This document shows, piece by piece, positions 1 to 15,791 of a stretch of 15,791 nt of DNA. The notes under the pieces were generated by a model, which was not told where the DNA came from, searched no databases, and was given only the letters and a program-made list of their open reading frames with translations. Each line of letters opens with the position of its first letter. Within the stretch, counting starts at the first letter, position 1. A program made the position numbers and the translations under genes. This stretch comes from Bacteroidales bacterium. Its GTDB lineage: Bacteria > Bacteroidota > Bacteroidia > Bacteroidales > UBA932. The stretch lies in NCBI GenBank assembly GCA_024683255.1, contig JAIKYL010000008.1, positions 1-15,791 on the forward strand. The letters are read 5' to 3'.

Positions 1-491
1 CCAAGCTGGTGTGCGCCTCCGCTCCTGCGGCTCCGGCCCAGAATTCCGGCCTGGTGGCCTATGAAAGCGACGACAACTTTGTGAAGTTTGTCTATGCGGC
101 CACGTTCAATTTCCGCCGCCAGGCGGATGCCGGTCCCGCCGCGGGCCAGCTGCAGCTGCTGGTAGAGGAGAACGGCCAGCAAAAGAGTACCGTTTCCCTC
201 AGCATGGAAGGCATCGTGGGTGCTAACAACGTTATTTGGCTCCGCCTGGTAAAACAGGCCGATACCTACACCGCCTGGTACTCCGTGGACGGCAGGAAGT
301 ATGAAAAGATGGGTACGGCACAGGCCGTGCTCAAGGATGTGCAGGTGGGTGTGACAGCCTGTGAAGGAGCCCAGCCCGCTATGATGCGGGGCTTTGGCGG
401 TCCCGGCCGCGGCGGCATGCAGATGCCCGTTGCAGCACCGCTCAAGGCCGCTTTCGAAGAGTTCAAGATTAAATCCGCCGGTACCAAGTAA
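1..491 (+). CDS. C-terminal end of a secreted carbohydrate-active protein (concanavalin-like domain), 5' truncated
   Basis: The reading frame is open from the window edge (first full codon at 3) to TAA at 489-491, so only about 162 C-terminal residues are visible and the start lies upstream. The segment GLVAYESDDNFVKFVY, followed by VIWLRLVKQADTYTAWYSVDGRKYEKMG, has the pattern of the concanavalin-A-like beta-sandwich found at the C-terminus of many GH43 beta-xylosidase-type enzymes (also the DUF1349 type): 'xGLxxYxxDxNxVKxxx' then 'WLRLxxxxxxxxAxYSxDGxxW'. A Gly/Arg/Met-rich loop (MMRGFGGPGRGGMQM) is inserted before the last strand, FEEFKI. The catalytic domain is not in the window, so the enzyme family cannot be read. 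GH43 is the likeliest guess; any secreted protein with this accessory domain is possible. The stop overlaps the next start by one base (TAATG), so the two genes are probably co-translated. Confidence 0.7.
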   Translation, partial: KLVCASAPAAPAQNSGLVAYESDDNFVKFVYAATFNFRRQADAGPAAGQLQLLVEENGQQKSTVSLSMEGIVGANNVIWLRLVKQADTYTAWYSVDGRKYEKMGTAQAVLKDVQVGVTACEGAQPAMMRGFGGPGRGGMQMPVAAPLKAAFEEFKIKSAGTK

Positions 492-1084
492 TGTTCCCCG
501 GAATCCGCATCATGCTTTCGGTACTCCTGCTTGTGGGCTGTTTTCGTACGGCCTGTGCGCAGGAGACCCTGCATGCGTCGTCCCATGGGGTGCTGCAGGC
601 TGTCTGCGAGGGTCCGGACGGCATGCAATGGGCTGTTACGGATGCGGGGGAAATCCTGCACTCGGCAGACGGCCTTGCCTGGACCGTCCTGGATTTCAAT
701 GTGCAGTATGCCGGTTTTTACCCTCCGGTGGATTTCCGTGCCGTGGCCTCCGGCGGAGGCTCGGTGATGGTGGCGGGAGTGGATGCCGAAGGCCACCTGG
801 CCGTGTATACCTCCAGCCGCGGCTCCGTGTGGAGCCCCCGTTCCCTGGACTATACGGAAGGAGGGGAGCGGCTTGTGCTGGATGTGGAGCCGGTCTCGCT
901 CAGCTATGATACCCTGCGGGACAGTTTTTTCCTTTGCGGTACCAGCGGAACCCTCTTCGAGATGCCGGGCTGTTCGCATTGCAACCGCCTCACCCGTTAT
1001 CCAACCGACACGCTGTATGTCCGCTTGCGGGCGGGATTCAACGTGATGCTCCTGGGCAGTGGCGGCTTCCGGAAAGTGGAATAG
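491..1084 (+). CDS. Small secreted Asp-box / beta-propeller-like protein of unknown function
   Basis: This is a 197-residue protein. A hydrophobic leader (residues about 8-23) ends in TACAQ, suggesting signal peptidase I cleavage after about residue 24. ATG at 491 overlaps the previous stop by one base; an in-frame ATG at 512 (residue 8) is an alternative start. The mature part has short repeats like the BNR/YCF48 propeller families: WAVTDAGEILHSADGLAW (about 47-64), then MVAGVDAEGHLAVYTSSRGSVW (two parts, about 93-114), then FFLCGTSGTLFEM (about 146-158). HSADGLAW is close to the Asp-box S-x-D-x-G-x-x-W. At under 200 residues it has too few blades for a full propeller, so it may be a partial propeller or may oligomerise. 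Two Cys (C161, C164) near the C-terminus could form a disulfide. No catalytic residues are recognisable. Its place between a glycosidase end and two esterases suggests an accessory role in polysaccharide use; that is inference. Confidence 0.75.
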   Translation: MFPGIRIMLSVLLLVGCFRTACAQETLHASSHGVLQAVCEGPDGMQWAVTDAGEILHSADGLAWTVLDFNVQYAGFYPPVDFRAVASGGGSVMVAGVDAEGHLAVYTSSRGSVWSPRSLDYTEGGERLVLDVEPVSLSYDTLRDSFFLCGTSGTLFEMPGCSHCNRLTRYPTDTLYVRLRAGFNVMLLGSGGFRKVE

Positions 1085-3378
<2,294 letters not shown>

Positions 3379-3380
3379 CT

Positions 3381-4907
3381 ATGAAAAAGTATCTGATCAT
3401 TGCGGCAGCGGCGCTCTGCCTGTGCGCCTGTGCCAAGCAGGTTCCCGGTCAGGTTAATGTGACCGGCGGCACCATCCAGGGTACGGTCCTGGAGAACGTT
3501 ACCGTTTACAAAGGAATCCCCTTTGCAGCCCCGCCCGTGGGCGATTTCCGTTGGAAGGCCCCCCAGCCTGTGGTGGCCTGGCAGGGGATTAAGGAGTGCA
3601 AGGAATTCGGTCCCAATCCCATGCAAGGAAACGGTGAAGGCTGCTCTGAAGACTGCCTGTACCTGAATGTATGGACTCCAGCCAGAAGCCCTAAGGACAA
3701 ATTGCCTGTAATGGTCTGGATCTATGGCGGAGGCTTTGCCGGCGGCGCCACTTCCTATTACGACGGCACGCTCCTTTCCCAGAAAGGCGTGGTTGTGGTG
3801 AGTGTGGCCTACCGCGTGGGCAAGCTGGGCTTCCTGTCCCTGCCTGAGCTGTCGGCCGAAGATCCCAACGGCGTCAGCGGCAACTACGGTCTGCTGGACC
3901 AGATCGCCGGCCTTCAGTGGGTGAAGGACAATATCGCCAAGTTCGGCGGAGACCCTTCCAACGTGACCATTTTCGGCGAATCGGCCGGTGGCATTTCCGT
4001 GAGCATGCTGTGCGCTTCGCCGCTGGCCAAGGGCCTGTTCCAGCGGGCTATTTCCCAGAGCGGCGGTTCCTTCGGCCCCACCAACCCCCAGTCCTATCCC
4101 GGCGAGAACATGCAGACTCTGGCCGTTGCCCAGCAGGCCAACCAGGCCTGGGCCAAGGGCGCTTTTGGCGAAGATTATACGCTTGAGCAGCTGCGTGCGG
4201 CCGATGCCAAGGCCGTAATGGGTGGTTTCGGCGGTTCCGGCGGCTGGCCTGTGACGGACGGCTACGTGATTCCGGACGACCAGTACAAGCTGTACGAGGC
4301 CGGGAAGTACAACGATGTGGATGTGCTCATCGGCTACAACTCCGACGAAGGCCTCAGCTTCGGCTTCTCCTTCGGCGGCGGCAGCCATCAGGACCAGGTC
4401 CGTTCCCGTTATGAGGATTATGCCGATGCCCTTCTGGCCGCCTATCCCGTGGAGGCCGACGGAAAGGTGGGCAAGACCGCCCGTGACCTCACCCGCGACG
4501 CCGCCTTCGGCTGGCAGACCTGGGCCTGGGCCCGCCTGCAGGAAAAGACCGGCAAGGGCAAGGTCTGGCTCTACTATTTTGACCAGCATCCGGAGTATCC
4601 GGAGGACAGCCCCCGCTTCGGCCAGGGTTCCCCGCACGGTCAGGACGTAGCCTATGTCTTCGGCAATCCGGAAGAGGTGCAGCCCACGGACATGGCGCTC
4701 TCCGGCTGGATGATGTCTTACTGGAGCAACTTCGCCAAGACGGGTGATCCCAACGGCGAAGGTCTCCCGGAGTGGCCGCGCTTCCGCAATGAAGAACCTC
4801 AGAGCATGGTGCTCACCGGTGAAGGCTGCTACGCAGCCCCCGTCCCCTCCGAGAAAGCCCTGTGGGTCCTGGACGAGTACTTTGCCTGGCGCCGCAGTCA
4901 GGAATAG
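3381..4907 (+). CDS. Type-B carboxylesterase lipoprotein (para-nitrobenzyl esterase / former CE10 family)
   Basis: This 508-residue protein is full length for the carboxylesterase B family. The leader MKKYLIIAAAALCLCAC suggests a lipoprotein (Cys about 17), though the lipobox (L-C-A-C) is imperfect. Family hallmarks are visible in order: YKGIPFAAPP (43-52), the EDCLYLNVW signature (90-98), the oxyanion loop YGGGFAGG (115-122), the nucleophile elbow GESAGG with S201, the acid E323 in SDEG, and the catalytic His H419 in SPHGQDVAYVFGN. All three triad residues are present, so it should be active on a carboxylic ester. Members near xylanolytic genes are often implicated in removing small acyl groups; the natural substrate here is unknown. 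It is the last gene of the 1-4907 run and is followed by a strong hairpin. Confidence 0.93.
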   Translation: MKKYLIIAAAALCLCACAKQVPGQVNVTGGTIQGTVLENVTVYKGIPFAAPPVGDFRWKAPQPVVAWQGIKECKEFGPNPMQGNGEGCSEDCLYLNVWTPARSPKDKLPVMVWIYGGGFAGGATSYYDGTLLSQKGVVVVSVAYRVGKLGFLSLPELSAEDPNGVSGNYGLLDQIAGLQWVKDNIAKFGGDPSNVTIFGESAGGISVSMLCASPLAKGLFQRAISQSGGSFGPTNPQSYPGENMQTLAVAQQANQAWAKGAFGEDYTLEQLRAADAKAVMGGFGGSGGWPVTDGYVIPDDQYKLYEAGKYNDVDVLIGYNSDEGLSFGFSFGGGSHQDQVRSRYEDYADALLAAYPVEADGKVGKTARDLTRDAAFGWQTWAWARLQEKTGKGKVWLYYFDQHPEYPEDSPRFGQGSPHGQDVAYVFGNPEEVQPTDMALSGWMMSYWSNFAKTGDPNGEGLPEWPRFRNEEPQSMVLTGEGCYAAPVPSEKALWVLDEYFAWRRSQE

Positions 4908-4940
4908 TGTGTTTTTCGGAAACACCTATTTATTTGCGAC

Positions 4941-4986
4941 TTATGTAAATACCCTGCTGCAATCTTACAGCAGGGTATTTGCATAA
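4941..4986 (+). terminator. Strong hairpin terminator after the esterase run
   Basis: Arms 4941-4959 and 4968-4986 are complementary over 19 bp with one G-U pair (T4946 with G4981) around an 8-base loop. The core CCCTGCTG/CAGCAGGG is GC-rich, and flanking A/T runs sit inside the stem (AAAT before, ATTT after). It lies 34 bases after the carboxylesterase stop and before the sigma-factor gene. The near symmetry means it could act in both directions. A classical long U tract after the stem is lacking. Confidence 0.8.
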
Positions 4987-5053
4987 CACATTCAATCTCA
5001 ATCTTTTTCGCAATAGTACGCAGTATTCTGCAAAAAGGAACGTTATTTAATTG

Positions 5054-5599
5054 ATGGAAGAACAGGAACTGGCCAGCAGATGTGCCCGGAGGGACAGGGA
5101 AGCACGGGAAGAGCTGTTCAAGCGGTATAGTCCCCGCTTGTATGCCCTGTGTGTGCGCTATACCCGGAACCGCCAGGAGGCCGATGACCTGCTGCAGGAC
5201 GCCTTCATCCGGGTGTTCGACCGGATGGGCAGGTTCCGCTGGCAGGGCGAAGGATCTCTGTACCGCTGGATGAGCCGCCTTACGCTTTACCTGTTCTTTG
5301 ACAAGGCGCGGCGAAGGCGCCTGATGCGGGAAACGGACATAGGCCCGCTGGAAGAATCGCTCCCGGAACCGGACTATCAGGAGACCCTGCAGGTCCCGCC
5401 GGAAAAGCTGAAAACCTTCATAGACGGCCTCCCGGAACGGTACCGGACGGTATTTCAACTCTACTGTATTGATAATTTGTCCCATGCGGAAATTGCCGGA
5501 CTGCTGGGAATTAAGGAAAAGACTTCATCGGCCGATTTGGCACGCGCACGGGTGCTGCTCTCCAAACAAATAAAAGCCTATCTCCATGAAAACGAATAA
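5054..5599 (+). CDS. ECF-family RNA polymerase sigma factor
   Basis: This 181-residue sigma-70-family factor of the extracytoplasmic-function type has only regions 2 and 4. Region 2 (about 20-88) includes EELFKRYSPRLYALCVRYTRNRQEADDLLQD in two pieces and the promoter-melting/-10 recognition segment FRWQGEGSLYRWMSRLTLYLFFD. Region 4 (about 118-176) has LPERYRTVFQLYCIDNLSH followed by the helix-turn-helix AEIAGLLGIKEKTSSADLARAR. A TTG at 5051 would add one residue, but ATG 5054 is the natural start; AAGGAA at 5035-5040 is a weak possible ribosome site. It overlaps the next gene by 14 bases, the usual arrangement of a sigma factor with its anti-sigma partner. Its regulon cannot be read; the adjacent promoters are candidates. 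Confidence 0.93.
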   Translation: MEEQELASRCARRDREAREELFKRYSPRLYALCVRYTRNRQEADDLLQDAFIRVFDRMGRFRWQGEGSLYRWMSRLTLYLFFDKARRRRLMRETDIGPLEESLPEPDYQETLQVPPEKLKTFIDGLPERYRTVFQLYCIDNLSHAEIAGLLGIKEKTSSADLARARVLLSKQIKAYLHENE

Positions 5600-6668
5600 A
5601 GACTGGGCCGATGCCCTTCGCGAACAATGCTTCCCGGAAGAGGTCTCCCCTTCCGAGGGAAGCTGGGCGGGCATTACCGTTGCCCTGCGCCGGAGAACTG
5701 CACGCCGATGGAGCCTTGCCGCCGCCCTGGCCCTCTTGCTTCCGGTAGGTGGAGTACTGCTTTTCAAACCCTCGTCACCGGCTCCTATGCTGACCCAGGA
5801 GCATACGGTACTGGAATCCTCGGTACCTGAACTGCTGGCGTCTCTCCCTCCTTCCAGTCGGGTGGCCTCTTTGAGCCAGCGGAAAGCGGCTGCTGCGCCT
5901 GTGGAAACGGTGAATGAAATTGTAGAGCCAGTAGCTGAAACTGTGGAGCCGGAAGTTACCCCTGAGGAGCCGGTAACAGTTACAGTGGAAATACCTGTAT
6001 CTGAGCCGGAGGAAGAAACAGTTGCACAGTTTGAAGAGCTTCTGGACGAAGAACAGCCCCGGCGAGCTAAAAGAGTGTCCGTGACCCTTCAGGGTGGAAG
6101 TTCCCTGGGGCAGCGGGATTCCTATCCGCTGCAGGAATATGCCAAAAGGATGAGCTCTCAGACAAAATCGGCCAATCTCTTCTGGAATAATATAATCAAC
6201 AACGGTCAGGCGGACCAGCTGCATTACAGGCACGACCTTCCGCTTAGCCTGGCCCTTACCCTTCGCTGGGACCTGTCTTCCAGGTTGGCCCTTGAAAGCG
6301 GCATCAGCTATACCTATCTTCATTCCTATGGGGAACAAACCGGCCATCAGCAACTCCATTTTGTTGGCATTCCGCTCAAGCTGGACGTGCGGCTGTTTTC
6401 GGCAGGTCCGCTGGATGTAAGTGTTGGTGCTTACGGTATGGGAGAAAAGTGCCTGAGCGCCGTCCAGGGAGGAGTCCGGTACCCGGAGACTGCCGTGCAG
6501 TGGTCGGCCGGCGCATTCCTGGTTGCAGGTTACCGGCTGGGCTCCTTTGCCACCCTGTACCTGCAGCCGTCCCTGTCCTATTACTTCACCAAAACAACGC
6601 TCATCACCTACCGGACGGAGAATCCCCTGGGCTTCACCCTTCAGGCCGGTTTGAGGTTTCATCTTTAG
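5586..6668 (+). CDS. Putative anti-sigma protein: cytoplasmic N-terminus, one TM helix, Pro/Glu linker, outer-membrane beta-barrel-like domain
   Basis: This is a 360-residue protein. Residues 1-40 are cytoplasmic by the positive-inside rule (RRRTARR at 35-41) and contain WADALREQ...PSEGSWAGI, resembling N-termini of proteins encoded next to ECF sigma factors in Bacteroidetes. One TM helix lies at about 42-60. Residues about 62-163 are a low-complexity Pro/Glu/Val/Thr linker with repeated VEPV/EPE units. Residues about 164-360 read as alternating amphipathic strands (VSVTLQGGSSLG, LPLSLALTLRWDL, LALESGISYTYLHS, LHFVGIPLKLDVRLF, TLYLQPSLSYYF) ending in FTLQAGLRFHL, typical of outer-membrane beta-barrel (PorT-like) domains with an aromatic/hydrophobic terminal strand. 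The start overlaps the sigma gene by 14 bases. I infer that it binds the sigma factor from the membrane; direct evidence is positional plus topology. Confidence 0.75.
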   Translation: MKTNKDWADALREQCFPEEVSPSEGSWAGITVALRRRTARRWSLAAALALLLPVGGVLLFKPSSPAPMLTQEHTVLESSVPELLASLPPSSRVASLSQRKAAAAPVETVNEIVEPVAETVEPEVTPEEPVTVTVEIPVSEPEEETVAQFEELLDEEQPRRAKRVSVTLQGGSSLGQRDSYPLQEYAKRMSSQTKSANLFWNNIINNGQADQLHYRHDLPLSLALTLRWDLSSRLALESGISYTYLHSYGEQTGHQQLHFVGIPLKLDVRLFSAGPLDVSVGAYGMGEKCLSAVQGGVRYPETAVQWSAGAFLVAGYRLGSFATLYLQPSLSYYFTKTTLITYRTENPLGFTLQAGLRFHL

Positions 6669-6696
6669 GCGCGCAGTACTTTTCACTTTTATGCGT

Positions 6697-6704
6697 TATA
6701 TTTG
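6697..6704 (+). promoter_or_regulatory. -7 box (TATATTTG) of a Bacteroidetes promoter for the lipoprotein gene
   Basis: TATATTTG fits the Bacteroidetes -7 consensus TAnnTTTG. It lies 22 bases before the ATG at 6727, leaving a short leader. No convincing TTTG -33 box is found 19 bases upstream. The box overlaps codons of an earlier in-frame ATG at 6691, which supports the later start. Confidence 0.55.
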
Positions 6705-6726
6705 CAGAATCAACCATTCCACAGTA

Positions 6727-7509
6727 ATGAAACGCTTATTCGCTTTTTTAGGTATTGCCGCCGCCATGGTAGCTTGTGACAAAGAACAGCCCTGGAGTGA
6801 CCCTACCCAAGAGGAAGATGCTCCTCTTTTCAATATCACCAGGACGGACCTTAGCAGCATATCTTTTGACCTGGATGACATTTCAGATCCCGGTACCATC
6901 ACCTCGCCGGTGAATTATTTTACCAATGTCTCGTGGGAAGAGTGGCGGCATATGAGCAATCCGGAAAGACACGAAGTCCTGGAAGTCCCGGAAGCCACTC
7001 TTAAACAGATGACCACCCGGGCGCTGGTGGAATCGGCCCTTAACCATCCGGAACTGGGCATCGTCAACTACGCGTACAATTATCCCCTGGCAGCCATGGA
7101 CCATTTCGTGGAAAACACCGGACTCATGCGGGAGCTCTATTCCCGCAAGAATGCCCCGGATGTCCTTATCTGGGCATATGGGCAGGCCGCCCTGGATCCG
7201 CTTTATCTGCTGGATCCGGATGCCGCCTGGCAAAACCGGGATTATGAGGCCAATATGTCGCTGGACAAGCTGGATTACCTATCCTTCAAGGCCTTTGACC
7301 TGCTCATGGCCAGCAGTCATTTTGACTTTTCCCACTCCCAGTATCTGGACTATTTCAAATCAACAACCGCCTATAAGATTTCGGAAGAGGGGCTGGATCT
7401 TTCCGGAGAAACCACCTATTACTGCGAACCCCTCCTCATAATCTGGGATAAATACTTCGGCAAGCTGGCACCCGGCATCTGCCTGGGCTCGGACCCTTAC
7501 AGGTTTTAG
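6727..7509 (+). CDS. Lipoprotein of unknown function
   Basis: This is a 260-residue protein. An in-frame ATG at 6691 exists, but it precedes the -7 box, and starting at 6727 gives a clean leader (MKRLFAFLGIAAAMVAC) with lipobox V-A-C at C17. After an acidic spacer (about 18-50), the central part holds LKQMTTRALVESALNHPEL (92-110) and FVENTGLMRELYSRKNAPDVLI (two halves, 127-148). This pattern of 'MTT.ALVE..L.HP' followed by 'LxRELxxRKNAxxVL' recalls uncharacterised secreted proteins of Bacteroidetes; I cannot name a family. The C-terminal third is Asp/Tyr/Phe-rich (LDYLSFKAFDLL, HFDFSHSQYLDYF) and ends in DPYRF. No enzyme motif is recognised. It follows the sigma/anti-sigma pair by 58 bases and may be part of the same response system or its target. 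Confidence 0.75.
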   Translation: MKRLFAFLGIAAAMVACDKEQPWSDPTQEEDAPLFNITRTDLSSISFDLDDISDPGTITSPVNYFTNVSWEEWRHMSNPERHEVLEVPEATLKQMTTRALVESALNHPELGIVNYAYNYPLAAMDHFVENTGLMRELYSRKNAPDVLIWAYGQAALDPLYLLDPDAAWQNRDYEANMSLDKLDYLSFKAFDLLMASSHFDFSHSQYLDYFKSTTAYKISEEGLDLSGETTYYCEPLLIIWDKYFGKLAPGICLGSDPYRF

Positions 7510-7515
7510 CCAGCG

Positions 7516-7554
7516 GCAAAGCCTGTGATAAGTCGGTTTTTTTCCGTATTTTTG
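7516..7554 (+). promoter_or_regulatory. Promoter of the GH95 gene with a 21-base block shared with the GH43 promoter
   Basis: The -7 box TATTTTTG is at 7547-7554. The expected -33 position, 19 bases upstream, reads TGTG (7524-7527), one base off TTTG. A 21-base block (7516-7536, containing CTGTGATAAGTCGG) spans the -33 region. It recurs with one mismatch at 9972-9992, with the same 10-base gap to the -7 box. The block may be an operator or activator site, or part of an alternative sigma promoter. Confidence 0.7.
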
Positions 7555-7569
7555 TAAAAAACAAATGAT

Positions 7570-9906
7570 ATGAAAAAAGCCGTCTGTATGCTGGCCGCGC
7601 TGTGCCTCCTGGCCGCTTGCCGGGAAAAGCCGCAGGAACTGCTGTTGCATTACAATGAGCCTGCTCAATTCTTTGAGGAGGCTCTCCCGCTGGGGAACGG
7701 CCGGCTGGGTGCCATGGTCTATGGCAGAGTGACGCAGGAGGAACGCATTTCCCTTAATGACATCACCCTATGGACCGGAGAGCCGGACAGGGGGCCGGAG
7801 CATCCGGACCTGCAGATGGTGGGGCTCACGGGCTCCGGAGCTGAGACCCTGCAGGCCATCCGGGAAGCCCTGGAGCAGGAGGACTACAAGAAGGCGGAAG
7901 AGCTGCAGTTGGGCCTCCAGGGACATTTCACGGAGAGTTATCAGCCGCTGGGAAGCCTTTATATCCATTATCTGGACTCGGCCGATATAACTGACTACCG
8001 CAGGGAATTGAACCTCTCTACGGCCACGGCAACGGTCTCCTGCCTCAAGGACGGGCAGCCTTTCCGGGCCAGTTGCTTTGTGTCGGCTCCGGATTCTGTA
8101 ATTGTGCTGCGGCTCACTTCGGGGGCCGGGATTGATGCCGATGTCCGGCTGGACAGCCCCCTGGACCACGAAAACGTGGCTTTCCCGGACCGCCTGGCCA
8201 TTGACGGATACGCCCGCTGGCACGCTTATCCCAATTATTATTACGGTGAAAAGCTGCAGATGCCTCTCTCAGACCCTTCCCGCGGCATCCATTTCCGGAC
8301 GCTTCTGGGCTGCAAGCCGGAGGACGGATCGGCCGTAGTGGAAGACGGACTCCTGAAGCTTCGCGGCTGCCACGACGTAATGCTGTACGTGGTTAATTCC
8401 ACCAGTTTCAACGGCTTTGACAAAGACCCTGTCCGCGAGGGGAAAGACTATAAAGCGTTGGCATCGGCCAACTTTGACCGCGTGGCTAGGAAGAATTACA
8501 ACGCCCTCCGGAAAGTCCACGAGGCCGATTTCGGGCAGTTCATGGGCCGCGTGAGCCTGGACCTGGGCGCCACGCCGGATTCCGTGAAGGTCCTTCCCAC
8601 GGACGTGCAGCTAAAGCGCTATACAGACCTCCAGGAAGCCAATCCGGAGCTGGAGGCCCTGTACTACCAGTATGGCCGGTATCTCCTTATTTCCAGCTCC
8701 CGTACGGACGGGGTTCCCGCCAACCTGCAGGGCCTCTGGAACGAGAGTATGGAGCCGCCGTGGAGCTGCAACTACACCATCAACATCAACCTGGAAGAGA
8801 ACTACTGGCCGGCCGAAGCGGCGGCCCTGCCGGAGATGCACGAGGCCATGCTTTCCTTTGTCCGGAATCTTTCCATCAGCGGTATGCCCGTGGCTCAGCG
8901 GCTCTACGGGGTCAGACGCGGTTGGAACGCCGGACACAATTCCGACATCTGGGCCACGGCTACGCCGGTGGGTCTGGGGACGGGGGTTCCCATGTGGGCC
9001 AACTGGACCATGGGCGGTGCCTGGTGCGCCACCCATATCTGGGAGCACTACCTTTTCACCAGGGACCGTGCAGCGCTGGAACGGGACTATCCCGCCCTCC
9101 GGGGTGCGGCCGAATTCTGCCTGGACTTCCTGGTGGAAAAGGACGGGGAACTCATTACTTCGCCGGGTACATCGCCGGAAAATGACTACATAACACCCGA
9201 CGGCTACAACGGCTCCACGCTCTATGGCGCCACGGCCGATCTGGCTTTGGTGCGGGAATGCCTCACAGACGCCGTTAAAGCCGCCCGGGAACTGGGTACG
9301 GATGCCGCCTTCTTGGAAGAGGCCGAAGGTGCGTTGGGGCGCCTCCGAGGCTATCATATCGGCTCGCAGGGCCAGCTTCAGGAATGGTATTACGACTGGG
9401 CCGACAGGGATCCCCAGCACCGGCATCAGTCCCATCTTATCGGAGTGTATCCCGGGCATCAGATTGAGGCCGGCTCGGAGCTGGCCGATGCGGCCCTAAA
9501 GACCCTGGAGATCCGGGGCTTCGAGACCACCGGCTGGAGCTGCGGCTGGCGCATCAACCTTTATGCCCGCCTGCAAGACGGGGAGAATGCCTATAAGATG
9601 TACCGCCGGCTGCTCCGTTATGTGAGTCCGGACCGCTACCGGGGCCCGGACGCCCGCCGGGGCGGCGGCACCTATCCCAACCTCATGGACGCCCACTCGC
9701 CCTTCCAGATTGACGGCAACTTCGGCGGCTGCGCCGGGGTGATGGAAATGCTCCTGCAGAGCGCCGAGGACGGTACCCTACAGACCCTGCCGGCCCTGCC
9801 GTCGGCCTGGCCCAGCGGCTCCGTCAAAGGCCTCCGTACCCGCGGAGGTAAGACCGTGGATCTAACTTGGAAAAACGGTAAAGTTCAGAAACTGACAGTC
9901 CGGTGA
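7570..9906 (+). CDS. GH95 glycosidase lipoprotein (alpha-L-fucosidase or alpha-L-galactosidase)
   Basis: This 778-residue protein is normal length for GH95. The lipobox is LAAC at C17. An N-terminal beta-sandwich region (about 25-290, beginning [28 protein letters not shown]) is typical of the family. The (alpha/alpha)6 barrel follows. It holds the paired Asn N405 and N407 in YTININ, followed by EENYWPAE; the proposed general acid E537 in SPGTSPEN; and D715 in FQIDGNFGG. These match the N421/N423/E566/D766 set known from Bifidobacterium AfcA, so all catalytic residues appear intact. In corn-xylan loci of Bacteroides ovatus a GH95 acts on L-galactose, so the neighbouring arabinoxylan-type genes make alpha-L-galactosidase a serious alternative to fucosidase. 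It has its own promoter. Confidence 0.94.
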
Positions 9907-9971
9907 TTCCACTACTTTTGCCGCCAGTACATACAGAATGCACAGAAGATGGTTTTTGTGGATTCGCGGCA

Positions 9972-10010
9972 GCAAAGTCTGTGATAAGTCGGCAATTATC
10001 TGTATTTTTG
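9972..10010 (+). promoter_or_regulatory. Promoter of the GH43 gene with the shared 21-base block
   Basis: The -7 box TATTTTTG is at 10003-10010, and TGTG sits at the -33 position (9980-9983). The block at 9972-9992 matches 7516-7536 at 20 of 21 bases with equal spacing to the -7 box and to the start codon (54 bases from block start to ATG in both). It lies in the 119-base gap after the GH95 stop. Confidence 0.7.
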
Positions 10011-10025
10011 TACAAATCTACTGAT

Positions 10026-11591
10026 ATGAAGAATACCCTCTGCCTGCTGGCAGTCCTGTGCCTCCTGGCCGGCTGCGCTTCCACCGGGGAACCGGGTTCC
10101 CAGGTGGCCGTTAATCCCCTCACTTATACGGATATTCCGGACCCGGATATCGTCCGCGTGGGTAATGACTATTACATGGTAAGCACCACCATGTACTTCT
10201 GCCCCGGCGCCCCCATCATGCATTCCAAAGACCTGGTGCACTGGCGCATAATCAATTATGTGTACGACGTAATTGAGGATGACGACAAGTATAACCTCCA
10301 GAATGAGCAGAATGCTTATGGCAAGGGCCAGTGGGCAGCCACGCTGCGCTATCACAAGGGCACCTGGTACTGCCTCTTTGTGGCCAACGACCAGCACAAG
10401 ACCTATCTCTACAAGACCAAAAACATAGAGAAAGGCCCCTGGAAGCGCAACGAGATTGAAGGATTCTTCATGCACGACGCCTCGCTCCTCTTCGACGATG
10501 ACAACCGCCTGTGGGTGGCCTGGGGCAACGGAGAAATCCACCTGGTGGAACTGGAGCCGGACGGATCGGCCGTAAAAGCGGGAGCGCAGGAGAAGGTGAT
10601 CATCGACTCCCCGCGTCAGGGCTGGATGCTCCGGGCCGAAGGATCGCACCTGTACCATATCGGCGATTATTATTATGTGCTGGAAATTGACTGGCCCCGG
10701 GGTGGCGTACGTACGGCCACTTGCTGGCGCAGCAAGGACATAGAAGGCCCCTATGAGCGCAAAGTGGTACTGCAGGGCACTCTGGGTGGCCGTGGCGACG
10801 GCATCGCACAGGGTCCCATTGTGGACACGCAGTTTGGGGACTGGTATGCCGTCCAGTTCCAGGACCACGGCGCCGTGGGCCGCATTCCCACCGTCCAGCG
10901 CGTAACCTGGGTGGACGACTGGCCCATCATGGGCAATGACGGCGTACCGGAAGAGGAAGTTACCGTTAACTTGAAGGCCGATGGAGAAGACTACGTCTGG
11001 GACAACGACGAGTTCGATTCCTCCAAACTGGCCCTGGTGTGGCAGTGGAACCACAGGGAGCCGGAAGGCTGGTCCCTCACGGAGCGTCCGGGCTGGATGA
11101 AGCTAAGCGCCAACAGTTGCTGGTTCGGCCTGCCGGATGCCCGCGGAACCCTTACCCAACGCACCGTAGGGCCCCGCTGCGTGAGCGAGGTACTCATGGA
11201 TGCATCGGCCCTGGAGCCCGGTGACGAGGCAGGTATCTGCGCCTTCCAGAGCCGGAGCGCCCGTATCGGCATAGAAGTCTCCCGCGACGGCAGCCGTCTG
11301 GTCACCCTCCGGGAGAAAGAGGACATCCTCTCCCAGATGCCGCTGGAGGGAGATCAGGTATACTTCCGCATCCGCTACGTCTTTACGCCGATGGAAGAGG
11401 GAGACGTCCGCGACACGGCTTTCTTCAGCTGGTCCTCCGACGGAGAGAACTGGTACAACTTCAACTACGCCCTGGAGATGCGCTTTACGCTGGATTATTT
11501 CACCGGTTATCGTACCGGCCTGTACTGCTTCCACCGCGAAGGCCAGGGCGGCGCCGCGTACTTCGACTACTTCCACCAGTGGGTGTACTAA
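10026..11591 (+). CDS. GH43 glycosidase lipoprotein (alpha-L-arabinofuranosidase / beta-xylosidase type)
   Basis: This is a 521-residue protein. An in-frame GTG at 9903 would add 41 residues that include the promoter region, so ATG 10026 is the start; it gives the leader MKNTLCLLAVLCLLAGC with lipobox C17. The five-bladed propeller spans about 30-310 with the GH43 triad visible: general base D39 in IPDPDIV, pKa modulator D151 in FMHDASLLF, and general acid E205 in RAEGSHLY. PDIVRVGNDYYMVSTTM and GAPIMHSKDLVHW are typical family signatures; the latter recalls subfamily 12, though I cannot fix the subfamily. Residues about 325-521 form a C-terminal concanavalin-like domain, the same general type as the partial protein at the window start. 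Release of L-arabinofuranose or xylose from arabinoxylan is the likely role. It is followed by a terminator. Confidence 0.94.
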   Translation: MKNTLCLLAVLCLLAGCASTGEPGSQVAVNPLTYTDIPDPDIVRVGNDYYMVSTTMYFCPGAPIMHSKDLVHWRIINYVYDVIEDDDKYNLQNEQNAYGKGQWAATLRYHKGTWYCLFVANDQHKTYLYKTKNIEKGPWKRNEIEGFFMHDASLLFDDDNRLWVAWGNGEIHLVELEPDGSAVKAGAQEKVIIDSPRQGWMLRAEGSHLYHIGDYYYVLEIDWPRGGVRTATCWRSKDIEGPYERKVVLQGTLGGRGDGIAQGPIVDTQFGDWYAVQFQDHGAVGRIPTVQRVTWVDDWPIMGNDGVPEEEVTVNLKADGEDYVWDNDEFDSSKLALVWQWNHREPEGWSLTERPGWMKLSANSCWFGLPDARGTLTQRTVGPRCVSEVLMDASALEPGDEAGICAFQSRSARIGIEVSRDGSRLVTLREKEDILSQMPLEGDQVYFRIRYVFTPMEEGDVRDTAFFSWSSDGENWYNFNYALEMRFTLDYFTGYRTGLYCFHREGQGGAAYFDYFHQWVY

Positions 11592-11614
11592 ACTGATTAT
11601 CAGTAATATAAAAG

Positions 11615-11646
11615 ATTCTCCCTGTGATTCCGGTCACAGGGAGAAT
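11615..11646. terminator. Bidirectional terminator between convergent GH43 and GH51 genes
   Basis: Perfect 13-bp arms (11615-11627 and 11634-11646; ATTCTCCCTGTGA and its complement) enclose a 6-base loop, TTCCGG. TTCTTTAAA follows on the plus strand, and AAAAGA precedes it, giving a T-rich run on the minus strand. Its position in the 81-base gap between converging genes fits a shared terminator. Confidence 0.9.
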
Positions 11647-11672
11647 TCTTTAAATACCTGTAAACGAGTTGA

Positions 11673-13208
11673 TTACTTCACTTCCAGCACCACCACGGAG
11701 GCGGCGGGGAGGGTGAGCTTCACGGTTTTGCCGGAGACCTTGGCGCCGGAGAATGCGGCGGGAGCCACCTCGGGGGCCTTGCCGAAGTCGTTGTAGGCGT
11801 TGATCTTGGCGGCCTGGAGGATTTCTCCGGAAACGGTCTTGGGCTTGAGCTGGTCAAAAGAGAGCTCCACCGTCACGGGCTTGTCCAGGGACGGATTGGC
11901 CAGGGAGACGTGCAGGGCGCCGGCGGCGTCGCGGGAGGCGCAGGCGCTGAAATTCTCCATCACGCGTCCTTCGGCCGATACAAAGGTACCGCAGCTGTAC
12001 TCCGAAGGCACATAAGTGGCGTTCTGGTGCACGTTGAACATGCGGAACACGTGGTAGGTGGGCGTGAGGACCATCTGGGGACCCTTGGTGAGGATCATGG
12101 CCTGCAGCACGTTCACGATCTGGGCGATGTTGGCCATCTTAAGGCGGTCCGTATGTTTCTGGAAGATGTTGAGGGACAGGGCGGCCACCATGGCGTCGCG
12201 CATGGTGTTCTGCTGGAACAGGTGGCCGGGGTTGTAGCCGGGTTCCACATCGAACCAGGTGCCCCACTCGTCCAGCAGGAGAGCAACCCGCTTGTCCGGG
12301 TCGAAGGCGTCCATGATGGCTTCGTGGTTGCGGAGGACCTCGTCAATCTCCACGCTCTTGGCCAGTACGTTGTAATACTCTTCCGGGGTGAAGTCCGTGG
12401 CCGATCCCTTGCTGCCCGTCCAACCCTTGCAGGTATAATAATGCAGGGAGAGGCCGTCCATCTTGTCGCGGTCCTTCTGCATCATGGTACGGGTCCAGGC
12501 ATAGTCGTAGTCGGATGCGCCGCAAGCCACCTTGAAGAGGCGGTTCTCCCCGTAGTTGCGGGAATAGAGGGCGTAACGCTTATACACATCGGCATAATAA
12601 TCGGCCGTCATGTCTCCGCCGCAGCCCCAGGTCTCGTTGCCAACGCCCAGGTATTTCACCTTCCAGGGCTTCTCTCGGCCGTTCTTGGCGCGGAGTTCGG
12701 CCATGGAGCCGTTCTCCGCCGTCATGTATTCCACCCACTTGGCGAGCTCTTCCACGGTGCCGGAGCCGATGTTGCCGCTGATGTAGGGCTCCGTGCCCAG
12801 CATCTCGCAGAGATTCAGGAATTCGTGCGTGCCGAAGGAGTTGTCCTCCACTGTGCTGCCCCAGTTGTTGTTCACCAGCTTGGGCCGGTTTTCCTTGGGG
12901 CCGATGCCGTCCATCCAGTGGTATTCATCTGCAAAGCAGCCGCCGGGCCAGCGGAGCACGGGCACCTTGAGGGCCTTCAGGGCCTCCAGCACATCCGTGC
13001 GATAGCCGTCCACGTTGGGAATGGAGGAATCCGGGCCCACCCAGATGCCTTCATAGATGCATCGGCCCAGATGCTCTGAGAACTGACCGTAAATCTCGGC
13101 CGGAATCACGGGTTGGTCCTGGGCGGTTTCCCGCACGGACACTTTCACCTGGGCCTGGGCCCCCAGCGAAACGGCAAGCGCCGAAAGGAGAAGGATAATT
13201 TTCTTCAT
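11673..13208 (-). CDS. GH51 alpha-L-arabinofuranosidase, secreted
   Basis: This 511-residue protein has a cleavable signal peptide ([20 protein letters not shown]), so unlike its GH neighbours it is probably soluble in the periplasm. GH51 hallmarks are visible: [21 protein letters not shown] (in two parts, 38-58), [14 protein letters not shown] (85-98), the acid/base E192 in [10 protein letters not shown], the HYYT segment (256-259) and the nucleophile E314 in LLDEWGTW. The barrel is followed by a C-terminal beta-sandwich (about 395-511). Length and both catalytic Glu are normal. It would remove alpha-1,2/1,3-linked L-arabinofuranose from arabinoxylan or arabinan oligosaccharides. It is transcribed divergently from the aldose epimerase gene and convergently with GH43. 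Confidence 0.96.
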
Positions 13209-13256
13209 ATTGGTTGAGGTTATTAATTATTGCTGTTCATTCTACCCTACTTTCAA

Positions 13257-13264
13257 CAAAAATA
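13257..13264 (-). promoter_or_regulatory. -7 box (TATTTTTG on the minus strand) for the GH51 gene
   Basis: CAAAAATA on the plus strand reads TATTTTTG on the minus strand, matching TAnnTTTG, and lies 49 bases upstream of the GH51 start. No clear -33 box is seen. It is only two bases from the divergent -7 box at 13267-13274. Confidence 0.55.
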
Positions 13265-13266
13265 CG

Positions 13267-13274
13267 TATATTTG
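13267..13274 (+). promoter_or_regulatory. -7 box (TATATTTG) for the aldose epimerase gene
   Basis: TATATTTG fits TAnnTTTG and lies 59 bases before the ATG at 13334, leaving an AT-rich leader of about 53 bases. A -33 TTTG at the expected spacing is absent. It is arranged back to back with the GH51 -7 box. Confidence 0.55.
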
Positions 13275-13333
13275 AGGACAGAATTATATCAATTTTTATT
13301 CATAAGTATTTAATTTTAATTTTTCCATACATT

Positions 13334-14479
13334 ATGCGTAAACTTCTTATTATCTGCGCCGGCGCCGCCCTGCTTCTGGCAGCCTGCGCCCCAAAGGAGC
13401 AGAAGGCCGCTCTAACCGCTTCCGGCCTGGATCCCAAGAACTTTGAAAACACTTATAACGGCGCCTCCACGGCCCTTTATACCCTCAACAACGAGAATGG
13501 CATGGAGGTTTGCATCACCAACTTCGGCGGTCGCATCGTCTCCATCGTGGTCCCGGACCGGGACGGCAACATGCGGGACGTGGTGCTGGGCTTCGACAAG
13601 GTGGAAGACTACTTCCCGGAGAACAATCAGACGGACTTCGGCGCCTCCATCGGCCGATATGCCAACCGCATCAACCAGGGACAGATTACCCTGGACGGTG
13701 AAACCTACCAGCTGCCGCAGAACAACTTCGGCCACTGCCTCCACGGCGGTCCCACCGGCTGGCAGTATCAGGTATATGATGTAGTAGAGGCCGATGCCAA
13801 ACACGTAAAGCTCTGCCGCGTTTCCCCGGACGGAGACAACAACTTCCCCGGCAATGTGAAGGCCTTTGTAACCTACACCCTCACGGATGACAATAAGATT
13901 GACATCCAGTATGAGGCCACCACGGACAAGACCACGGTCATCAACATGACCAACCACTCGTACTTCAACCTGGCCGGCGCACCCGACACTCACCGCATTG
14001 TGGACGAGGTGCTGTACGTGAACGCCAGCAACTTCACCCCCGTGGACGAGACTTACATGACCACCGGAGAAATCCGCCCGGTAGCCGGCACACCGTTCGA
14101 CTACACCACCTCCCACCTCATCAGCGACAATATTACGGCCGATGATGAGCAGATCCGTTTCGGCAACGGCTTTGACCACAACTGGGTTCTGGACAACAAC
14201 CGGGACATCAACGTGATTGCCGCCTGCCTGTACAACCCGGTGAACGGCATCAAGCTCTGCGTCTATACGGACGAGCCCGGCATCCAGGTGTACTCCGGCA
14301 ACTTCCTGGACGGCACCGTAAAGGGTAAGAAGGGTATTGTTTACCAGCAGCGCACCGGCATCTGCCTGGAGACCCAGAAGTATCCGGACACGCCCAACAA
14401 GCCCGAATGGCCGTCGGCCGTGTTACGTCCCGGCGAGAAGTACACCAGTCACTGCATATTCGCTTTCACTACGGAATAA
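13334..14479 (+). CDS. galM: Aldose 1-epimerase (mutarotase), lipoprotein form
   Basis: This 381-residue protein interconverts alpha and beta anomers of aldoses such as galactose, arabinose or xylose. The frame is open back to 13214, but ATG 13334 lies after the -7 box and begins a proper leader (MRKLLIICAGAALLLAAC, lipobox LAAC at C18), so this is the start. Family motifs: FGGRIVSIVVPDRDG (64-78), GASIGRYANRI (103-113, R108), FGHCLHGG with H137, NHSYFNL with catalytic acid H208, FDHNW with D281, and the catalytic base E346 in GICLETQKYPD. All key residues of the Lactococcus GalM set are recognisable. Being lipid-anchored outside the cytoplasm, it would act on sugars released in the periplasm or at the surface rather than in the cytosolic Leloir pathway. 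Confidence 0.95.
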   Translation: MRKLLIICAGAALLLAACAPKEQKAALTASGLDPKNFENTYNGASTALYTLNNENGMEVCITNFGGRIVSIVVPDRDGNMRDVVLGFDKVEDYFPENNQTDFGASIGRYANRINQGQITLDGETYQLPQNNFGHCLHGGPTGWQYQVYDVVEADAKHVKLCRVSPDGDNNFPGNVKAFVTYTLTDDNKIDIQYEATTDKTTVINMTNHSYFNLAGAPDTHRIVDEVLYVNASNFTPVDETYMTTGEIRPVAGTPFDYTTSHLISDNITADDEQIRFGNGFDHNWVLDNNRDINVIAACLYNPVNGIKLCVYTDEPGIQVYSGNFLDGTVKGKKGIVYQQRTGICLETQKYPDTPNKPEWPSAVLRPGEKYTSHCIFAFTTE

Positions 14480-14485
14480 ACAAAC

Positions 14486-14515
14486 GAGTCGCGACCCTCC
14501 CCAAGGTCGCGACTC
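14486..14515 (+). terminator. Hairpin after the aldose epimerase gene
   Basis: Perfect 11-bp arms (14486-14496 and 14505-14515, GAGTCGCGACC and its complement) enclose an 8-base C-rich loop and start six bases after the stop codon. The stem is very GC-rich, but the sequence after it (TGGTATATAAAA) lacks a U tract. It is probably a terminator or 3' stabiliser. Confidence 0.7.
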
Positions 14516-14542
14516 TGGTATATAAAACGAACTTAACAAATA

Positions 14543-14566
14543 GACTTTGAAGAATTCTTCATAGTC
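14543..14566. repeat. 24-bp near-perfect palindrome in the leader of the GH127 gene
   Basis: The two 12-base halves (GACTTTGAAGAA and TTCTTCATAGTC) are reverse complements except for one T-T mismatch. The inner 14 bases (14548-14561) are perfectly palindromic. The element sits 105 bases upstream of the GH127 start in a 191-base AT-rich gap. It could be an operator for a dimeric regulator or an RNA hairpin with an AAUU loop. Confidence 0.6.
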
Positions 14567-14573
14567 CAATAGC

Positions 14574-14588
14574 AAAGGTATAACCTTT
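14574..14588. repeat. Short inverted repeat AAAGGT-ATA-ACCTTT
   Basis: Perfect 6-bp arms enclose a 3-base centre, eight bases after the 24-bp palindrome. It may be a second half of a composite operator, or chance in AT-rich sequence. Confidence 0.35.
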
Positions 14589-14607
14589 AAATTATAAAAA
14601 CAAATTT

Positions 14608-14655
14608 ATTTACAACTTTTAACCAATTAAATATTTTTAGTAATAAGTTGTAAGT
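14608..14655. repeat. Spaced inverted repeat just upstream of the GH127 start
   Basis: TTACAACTT (14610-14618) and AAGTTGTAA (14645-14653) are exact reverse complements 26 bases apart, extendable by two further pairs including a G-T. Between them is TATTTTTA (14632-14639), one base off the -7 consensus, 31 bases before the ATG at 14671. The repeat could flank a promoter or fold in the leader RNA. Confidence 0.4.
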
Positions 14656-14670
14656 TATAAAACGTTGAAC

Positions 14671-15791
14671 ATGATGCGCTTCCAATTATTAACGCTTGCC
14701 GTCATTGTATGCCTGGCAGGAGCCTGCAACACGCAAAAAGAGCAGCCCGGGCACGGTTATCCCATAGATCCGGTCTCTTTCACCCAGGTGAAAGTGGAAG
14801 AAAACTCCTTCTGGGGACAGCGCCTTAAGGCTTCCCGTGAGGTAACCATTCCGCTGGCCTTCTCCAAGTGCGAGGAAACCGGACGCTATCGGAACTTTGA
14901 ACAGGCCGCCCAGCAGATGGCCTCCACGGAGAACCTGGGCTTCCCGCCCAGCGGCTTCCCCTTTGACGACACGGATGTTTACAAGACCATCGAGGGCGCC
15001 AGCTACCAGCTGCAAACCTATCCGGATGCAAAACTGGAAGCCTACATAGACAGCGTGCTGGCCATCGTGGCCACCGCACAGGAGCCGGACGGCTACCTGT
15101 ACACGCCGCGCACCATGAATCCGGAGCATCCGCATCCCTGGTCCGGCCTCACCCGCTGGAGCGAAGTGGAAGGCGGCAGCCATGAGTTCTACAACCTGGG
15201 ACACATGCTGGAAGCGGCCGTGGCGCATTATCAGGCCACCGGCAAGCGCAATTTCCTGGATATAGCCATCCGCTATGCAGACTGCGTGGTCCGGGAGATC
15301 GGCGAGGGAGAAGGGCAGACCTGCGTGGTTCCCGGTCATCAGATTGCCGAAATGGGCCTTGCGAAGCTGTACCTGGCCACCGGGGACAAAAAGTACCTGG
15401 ACCAGGCCAAGTTCTTCCTGGACAAGCGCGGCACCACCAAGATCCGCCAGGCGTATAGTCAGTCGCACAAGCCGGTCCTTGAGCAGGACGAGGCGGTGGG
15501 ACACGCCGTACGCGCCGCCTACATGTACGCCGGAATGGCCGATGTGGCCGCCCTCACGGGAGACCCCTCCTACGTGGACGCCATAGACCGCATCTGGGAG
15601 AACATCGTGGAGAAGAAGCTCTACATCACCGGCGGCATCGGCGCCACGGGCAATGGCGAAGCCTTCGGCCCCAACTACTTCCTGCCCAACGCCACTTCTT
15701 ACTGCGAGACCTGCGCGGCCATCGGCAACGTTTATGTGAATTACCGCATGTTCCTCCTGCACGGGGACGCCAAGTATTTTGACGTGCTGGA
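14671..15791 (+). CDS. GH127-type beta-L-arabinofuranosidase lipoprotein, 3' truncated by window
   Basis: About 373 codons are visible and the frame is open to the window end. ATG 14671 is followed directly by a second ATG at 14674; either gives a lipoprotein leader (QLLTLAVIVCLAGAC, Cys 19 or 18). The family (formerly DUF1680) is shown by the (alpha/alpha)6-barrel motifs ENSFWGQRLKASREVTIP, GYLYTP, SHEFYNLGHMLEAAVAHY, GHAVRAAYMYAGMAD, YITGGIGATGNGEAFGP and YCETCAAIGNVY. E330 (in GNGEAFG) and E346/C348 (in CETC) have the same 16-residue spacing as the acid/base E322 and zinc ligands E338/C340 of HypBA1. The expected later Cys-Cys motif with the nucleophile lies beyond the window. It would cleave beta-L-arabinofuranosides; some relatives act on other pectic sugars. 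Confidence 0.92.
   Translation, partial: MMRFQLLTLAVIVCLAGACNTQKEQPGHGYPIDPVSFTQVKVEENSFWGQRLKASREVTIPLAFSKCEETGRYRNFEQAAQQMASTENLGFPPSGFPFDDTDVYKTIEGASYQLQTYPDAKLEAYIDSVLAIVATAQEPDGYLYTPRTMNPEHPHPWSGLTRWSEVEGGSHEFYNLGHMLEAAVAHYQATGKRNFLDIAIRYADCVVREIGEGEGQTCVVPGHQIAEMGLAKLYLATGDKKYLDQAKFFLDKRGTTKIRQAYSQSHKPVLEQDEAVGHAVRAAYMYAGMADVAALTGDPSYVDAIDRIWENIVEKKLYITGGIGATGNGEAFGPNYFLPNATSYCETCAAIGNVYVNYRMFLLHGDAKYFDVL

Follow-up and report, generated by a model that had tools for sequence, protein, structure and literature searches.

The stretch of DNA analysed here, referred to as the window, spans 15,791 nucleotides of a Bacteroidales contig (JAIKYL010000008.1, positions 1 to 15,791; assembly GCA_024683255.1) whose host is probably of animal gut origin. 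It carries a gene for an extracytoplasmic function (ECF) sigma factor that overlaps by 14 nt the gene for a 360-aa protein, followed by a gene for a predicted lipoprotein, and two promoter-like sites, both within 1.7 kb, precede the sigma and lipoprotein genes. The 360-aa protein has a transmembrane (TM) helix, a disordered tether and a barrel fold, and sigma linkage extends throughout its family. We conclude that the two overlapping genes very probably encode a sigma/anti-sigma pair of the Dma/Reo type, in which one chain would link the inner membrane with an outer-membrane barrel. The features of the locus are as follows.

5020..5046, + strand: predicted ECF promoter 1, an exact motif copy composed of GCAGTATT (5020-5027), N14 and GTTAT (5042-5046), 7 nt 5′ of the sigma ATG
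5054..5599, + strand: ECF sigma factor, 181 aa (Pfam PF04542 and PF08281; NCBIfam TIGR02937)
5586..6668, + strand: probable Dma/Reo-type dual membrane-spanning anti-sigma protein, 360 aa
5586..5708, + strand: anti-sigma residues 1-41, cytoplasmic head conserved in the alignment and presumed to bind sigma
5709..5765, + strand: anti-sigma residues 42-60, TM helix
5766..6074, + strand: anti-sigma residues 61-163, disordered Glu/Pro-rich tether (block-mean predicted local distance difference test score, pLDDT, 41-58)
6075..6665, + strand: anti-sigma residues 164-360, 8-stranded outer-membrane beta-barrel in the predicted model, ending GLRFHL
6673..6699, + strand: predicted ECF promoter 2, GCAGTACT-N14-GTTAT, beginning 4 nt past the anti-sigma stop codon
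6727..7509, + strand: predicted lipoprotein, 260 aa, MKRLFAFLGIAAAMVAC

The sigma factor scored 71.4 bits against TIGR02985, under the 126.4-bit cut-off of that model. The 360-aa protein had no Pfam or NCBIfam match at E <= 1, and hence no anti-sigma or FecR-type domain; it was identified through homologues, folding and published papers.

A predicted chain across both membranes

An original prediction made from the DNA letters described a sigma overlap, a short head, a TM helix, a linker and a barrel-like C-terminus, all of which we confirm; for residues 164-360, of which it expected a closed barrel, structure prediction returned a barrel of eight strands. Its view that such a layout is poorly described does not hold, as the layout is already present in PMC9308784, PMC13088901 and PMC13114119. 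What defines Dma proteins is a succession of four domains, with anti-sigma at the N-terminus, then TM helix and long disordered tether, and a barrel at the C-terminus; their genes lie next to ECF21 sigma genes, and the proteins occur solely in Bacteroidota (PMC13088901). A Phocaeicola anti-sigma factor is predicted to cross the periplasm with an outer-membrane barrel (Evans 2022, PMC9308784), and Reo spans all five compartments, with three nigD genes in the EcfO regulon (PMC13114119).

In the window protein, Trp27 of the head is invariant across a 50-row alignment, the hydrophobic stretch begins at residue 42 with no typical cleavable signal, and the tether measures 104 residues from the end of the TM helix to the first strand. 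The proposal that a single polypeptide ties the sigma factor to an outer-membrane barrel fits the barrel fold, the uncleaved-looking TM helix, the sigma linkage and the minimum tether length described below; binding of sigma by residues 1-41 and insertion of both ends of one molecule would complete it. A candidate metal or ligand site, built from His, Glu and Cys residues invariant in the close alignment, was dropped when most proved not to be invariant in a wider one.

A sigma gene is often followed by genes for its targets, and the 360-aa protein, having no anti-sigma Pfam domain, could in principle be a sigma-regulated outer-membrane protein rather than an anti-sigma factor. The conserved cytoplasmic head, the uncleaved-looking TM helix, the closeness of the two genes (-4 nt being the commonest offset), two separate fusions with sigma and the genetics of the same architecture (PMC13088901, PMC9308784) make this most improbable.

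Linkage to sigma was assessed in 115 distinct genes, comprising those of loci L001-L122 and the window, with 125 open reading frames (ORFs) reduced by identity of their last 200 residues; the loci were drawn from best-scoring matches and 20 hand-chosen regions rather than at random, and near-copies occur among them (for example L005/L006, L009/L013 and L103/L104). The homologues proved to be linked to sigma genes, as the original prediction had required, being adjacent or fused in 109/115: in 88 a sigma gene precedes them on their own strand, at offsets of -20 to 196 nt, in 21 sigma shares their reading frame, and in 6 it is absent. Three of the sigma-less genes (L016, L022 and L077) stand at the edge of the available DNA, L051 is a fragment of 74 residues, L041 a 241-residue frame that lacks the head, and the second gene of L040 (9261-10592), which lies near a fused sigma-Dma gene, encodes a Dma-like barrel with a different N-terminal part.

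In a search covering 5.8 billion proteins, 132 of the candidates scored were homologues at E <= 1e-3 (best 120 listed), and each of the 52 loci found by scanning GTDB genomes was Bacteroidota-titled. Counting matches to any family member at E <= 1e-3, the window protein matched 99/119 sampled whole genomes from the family of G002, a near relative, and a 19-row profile matched 78/121 sampled genomes from the family to which G003, whose record has a Bacteroidaceae title, belongs. When at most four candidates were scored in each genome and E <= 1e-10 was required, the profile matched 225/399 sampled genomes of the latter family. In G371, a 5.6-Mb genome from that family, the profile was matched from 1 to 401 (E 1.7e-74). 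The gene after the anti-sigma gene in L103, L104 and other loci of the G003 family resembles ribulose-phosphate 3-epimerase, a possible synteny marker for that branch. As a separate observation, the metagenome protein P0034 combines a head and tether of this type with a tail that is unrelated (PF21196), and is probably an assembly chimera.

Predicted promoters and the extent of the regulon

Regions upstream of the sigma genes share the motif GCAGTATTt, followed by 12 less conserved bases and (C/A)(A/G)TT(T/A)(A/T). An exact GCAGTA occurs within 160 nt of the sigma start in 52/109 regions (mean 3.0, max 5 in 20 shuffles; these shuffles and those of the two counts at up to 3 mismatches below were mononucleotide), and T is retained at positions 23 and 24 in 46 and 46 of the 47 copies that precede unfused genes. 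With up to 3 mismatches of 14 allowed, the full motif was found in 63/109 regions (mean 1.25, max 5 in 20 shuffles). The window holds exactly two copies, one preceding sigma (5020-5046) and one preceding the lipoprotein gene (6673-6699), as against 0 in 200 dinucleotide shuffles, and allowing one mismatch revealed no further copy in its 15.8 kb. Downstream of the anti-sigma gene the motif is less frequent, in 14/108 regions at up to 3 mismatches (shuffled mean 1.95, max 7), of which four weak cases may be due to chance. At up to 2 mismatches, L001-L007 and the fused L015 and L019 also have the copy on the lipoprotein side, which with the window gives 10/108.

Genome-wide scans for exact GCAGTA-N16-GTTAT (controls 0) located three copies in G002, two at the locus of the pair and one at L126:1501-1527, 33 nt before a gene that we take to be TonB-dependent-receptor-like. 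In G001, only the lipoprotein site is exact, the sigma site ending GTTAA. One-mismatch searches of G001 and G002 gave 7 and 6 sites against 4 and 3 for the reversed control, which is little excess, and exact sites only were used for these genomes. A CATTTA variant was followed in three genomes of the G003 family. Of the two exact copies present in each, one stands ahead of the sigma gene and the other ahead of a gene whose product was predicted by eye to be a lipoprotein; the three genomes have 12 sites at up to one mismatch against 0 in the reversed control. One of the three predicted lipoproteins has a sub-threshold NigD_C match. The six one-mismatch sites in these genomes include one ahead of a DUF4840 predicted lipoprotein and one ahead of a radical-SAM gene; the remaining four are followed by no ORF of at least 90 aa within 150 nt.

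The presence of the motif before both sigma and lipoprotein genes predicts self-activation together with a lipoprotein target, following the same logic as EcfO and NigD. A motif for EcfO of B. fragilis has been published (PMC7366714). If the motif described here is active, the regulons of many Bacteroidota pairs that have yet to be studied could be read from it directly.

The likely lipoprotein start is at 6727, as an ATG at 6691 overlaps promoter 2. The 260-aa product has no Pfam match at E <= 0.1, hence no NigD match, and its fold prediction has a mean pLDDT of 46. A crude lipobox pattern fits 35/79 ORFs downstream of anti-sigma genes, the remainder including spurious ORFs and other genes; a lipoprotein as third gene is common, not universal.

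In the window (1-15791) the pair sits within a run of glycan-degrading genes. GH95 and GH43 were assigned by Pfam, and by resemblance we take the other neighbours to be two CE1-like esterases, a carboxylesterase, GH51, an aldose epimerase and a GH127-like gene; no SusC/SusD-like ORF was seen in the window's ORF list. The pair might regulate these genes (GH95, GH43, GH51 and esterases) and sense a glycan, as has been proposed for Dma2, which alters glycan-locus expression in B. thetaiotaomicron (PMC13088901). GH95, GH43 and the lipoprotein are kept beside the pair at L001-L003, with GH51 at L001 and L002, and GH95 (63% identity) also occurs at the fused, more distant L019. Nevertheless, among the first 52 loci, many with short flanks, few matches lie outside L001-L003 (GH95 at L019, GH51 at L049, a weak GH43 at L045 and weak esterases), and both motif copies in the 15.8 kb belong to sigma and the lipoprotein, leaving none at the enzymes. 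We regard glycan-gene control as unlikely, although GH95 begins 60 nt past the lipoprotein gene and read-through from promoter 2 into it is possible.

Tether length and sigma fusions

If the protein spans the periplasm, its tether should have a minimum length. Tethers could be measured in 229/235 proteins and range from 76 to 249 residues, only two being shorter than 97: the second gene of L040 (76 residues), which is without its own sigma, and P0119 (79). In a second set, obtained with the L103 protein as query and sharing the L103 gene with the first, 119/121 were measured, with a minimum of 90, a next value of 107 and a median of 128. Protein searches accepted 0.55-1.75x the query length, and genome searches state no such limit. 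As to the survey of linker length that the original prediction suggested, tether sequence aligns poorly, and both sets show a floor near 90-100 residues, with no matching ceiling (up to 249). A floor without a ceiling is what would be expected of a chain obliged to cross the periplasm.

The same data bear on constitutive cutting after export, in which the head and TM helix would form a short anti-sigma factor of the ordinary kind, the barrel would be an independent outer-membrane protein, and no continuous tether would exist. Disordered Glu/Pro-rich linkers are generally protease-prone, and an intact spanning molecule of the window protein is itself a prediction. However, the poorly aligning tether has a length floor that a cut product would not need, and the hydrophobic stretch from residue 42 lacks a typical cleavable signal, so that constitutive cutting appears quite unlikely.

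At L018:7278-7867 a 51-bp tandem repeat of 11.6 copies lies within the tether. Among 50 proteins whose barrels are near-identical, 49 have lengths that lie multiples of 17 residues apart, with ten in-register length classes (357-510 aa; P0042-P0090). In this repeat relative, barrel and head are nearly the same while the tether grows 17 residues at a time, from about 97 up to 249. A worm-like-chain estimate puts the tension at roughly 15 pN for 97 residues and 4 pN for 249, values that depend on an assumed 20-nm gap and 0.4-nm persistence length. That the tether is a tuned mechanical element, with repeat number setting the ease of sigma release and the proteins gauging the spacing of inner and outer membranes, strikes us as a very speculative idea that is probably wrong. 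Given the floor and the repeat series, changing the tether length in either direction would put the spanning claim to the test. Separately, the tethers of P0100, P0119, P0117 and P0045 contain VILSDSEES- or VILSEA-type motifs that resemble translated short interspersed repeats.

Sigma and anti-sigma have also become a single polypeptide more than once. A tree of 112 sigma-plus-barrel rows requires two changes between split and fused forms, and forcing all 24 fused rows together was rejected (approximately unbiased test, p-AU 5.9e-5; log-likelihood 96 worse); these are quick trees with several long branches and no inferred root. A group of 19, with Prevotella- and Porphyromonadaceae-titled rows and three other genomes, resembles published Dma3, and a group of 5 (L015:6482-8224, L019:5795-7489, P0102, P0113 and P0117) lies inside the window's subfamily, beside the split L005/L006. 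In the five young fusions about 20 head residues remain between sigma region 4 and the TM helix, whereas in the five older fusions inspected region 4 passes almost directly into it. The fused layout is in print only as Dma3 (PMC13088901), and a second origin was not found in the literature searched. A sigma factor joined to the membrane must either act while anchored or be cut free; that the joining evolved twice would fit release by cutting rather than unbinding, and natural fusions that retain hardly any head hint that a membrane tether plus cutting may suffice.

Proposed mechanism and comparison with known systems

We propose that the N-terminal head would hold the ECF sigma factor at the inner membrane, while the TM helix and disordered tether would run through the periplasm to the 8-stranded outer-membrane barrel. 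An outer-membrane change, which might be stress, a ligand or failed barrel assembly, could then be relayed down the same chain, most likely by proteolysis, first of the periplasmic part and then of the TM helix, to free sigma. Free sigma would use GCAGTATT/GTTAT promoters to express its own sigma-anti-sigma pair and the adjacent lipoprotein, forming a feedback loop with a very small regulon.

Several observations weigh against this picture. At up to 3 mismatches, 46/109 regions upstream of sigma showed no copy of the motif, and neither did 94/108 regions downstream of the anti-sigma gene. Two short tethers, of 76 and 79 residues, exist. The inspected fused forms lose helix 1 or nearly the whole head, which is thus not always needed, and the suggested link to Dma1/Dma2 rests on architecture, sigma linkage and family-wide homology reaching 5-Mb genomes of the G003 family.

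The window offers a minimal case: sigma, an anti-sigma predicted to span both membranes and one lipoprotein. As architecture the pair is ordinary and already known; it is good as a worked case, the interest lying in the likely control sites, the minimum tether length and the second origin of sigma fusion.

In the FecI-FecR-FecA system a surface signal reaches an ECF sigma factor across two membranes through two proteins, FecR and a TonB-dependent transducer, in contrast to the one polypeptide predicted here. The closer parallel is with Dma1/Dma2 and Das1/Das2 of B. thetaiotaomicron, which share the adjoining sigma gene, the head, single TM helix, long disordered tether and barrel, and a further gene in the operon. 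Loss of a Dma protein derepresses sigma and raises outer-membrane vesicle production: expression of das2 and genes near it goes up when dma2 is deleted, and the vesicle phenotype depends on das2 (PMC13088901). The window protein is nonetheless of a distant subfamily (24% identity to the Bacteroidaceae-titled L038), with another downstream protein. EcfO-Reo of Phocaeicola vulgatus and Bacteroides fragilis likewise combines a five-compartment anti-sigma factor with lipoproteins (NigD) in the regulon (PMC9308784, PMC13114119), whereas the window lipoprotein has no NigD Pfam match. Finally, Dma3 of B. thetaiotaomicron carries an N-terminal sigma domain (PMC13088901), the fused layout of 21/115 surveyed genes; the window gene is unfused, and five of its subfamily relatives were fused by a separate event.
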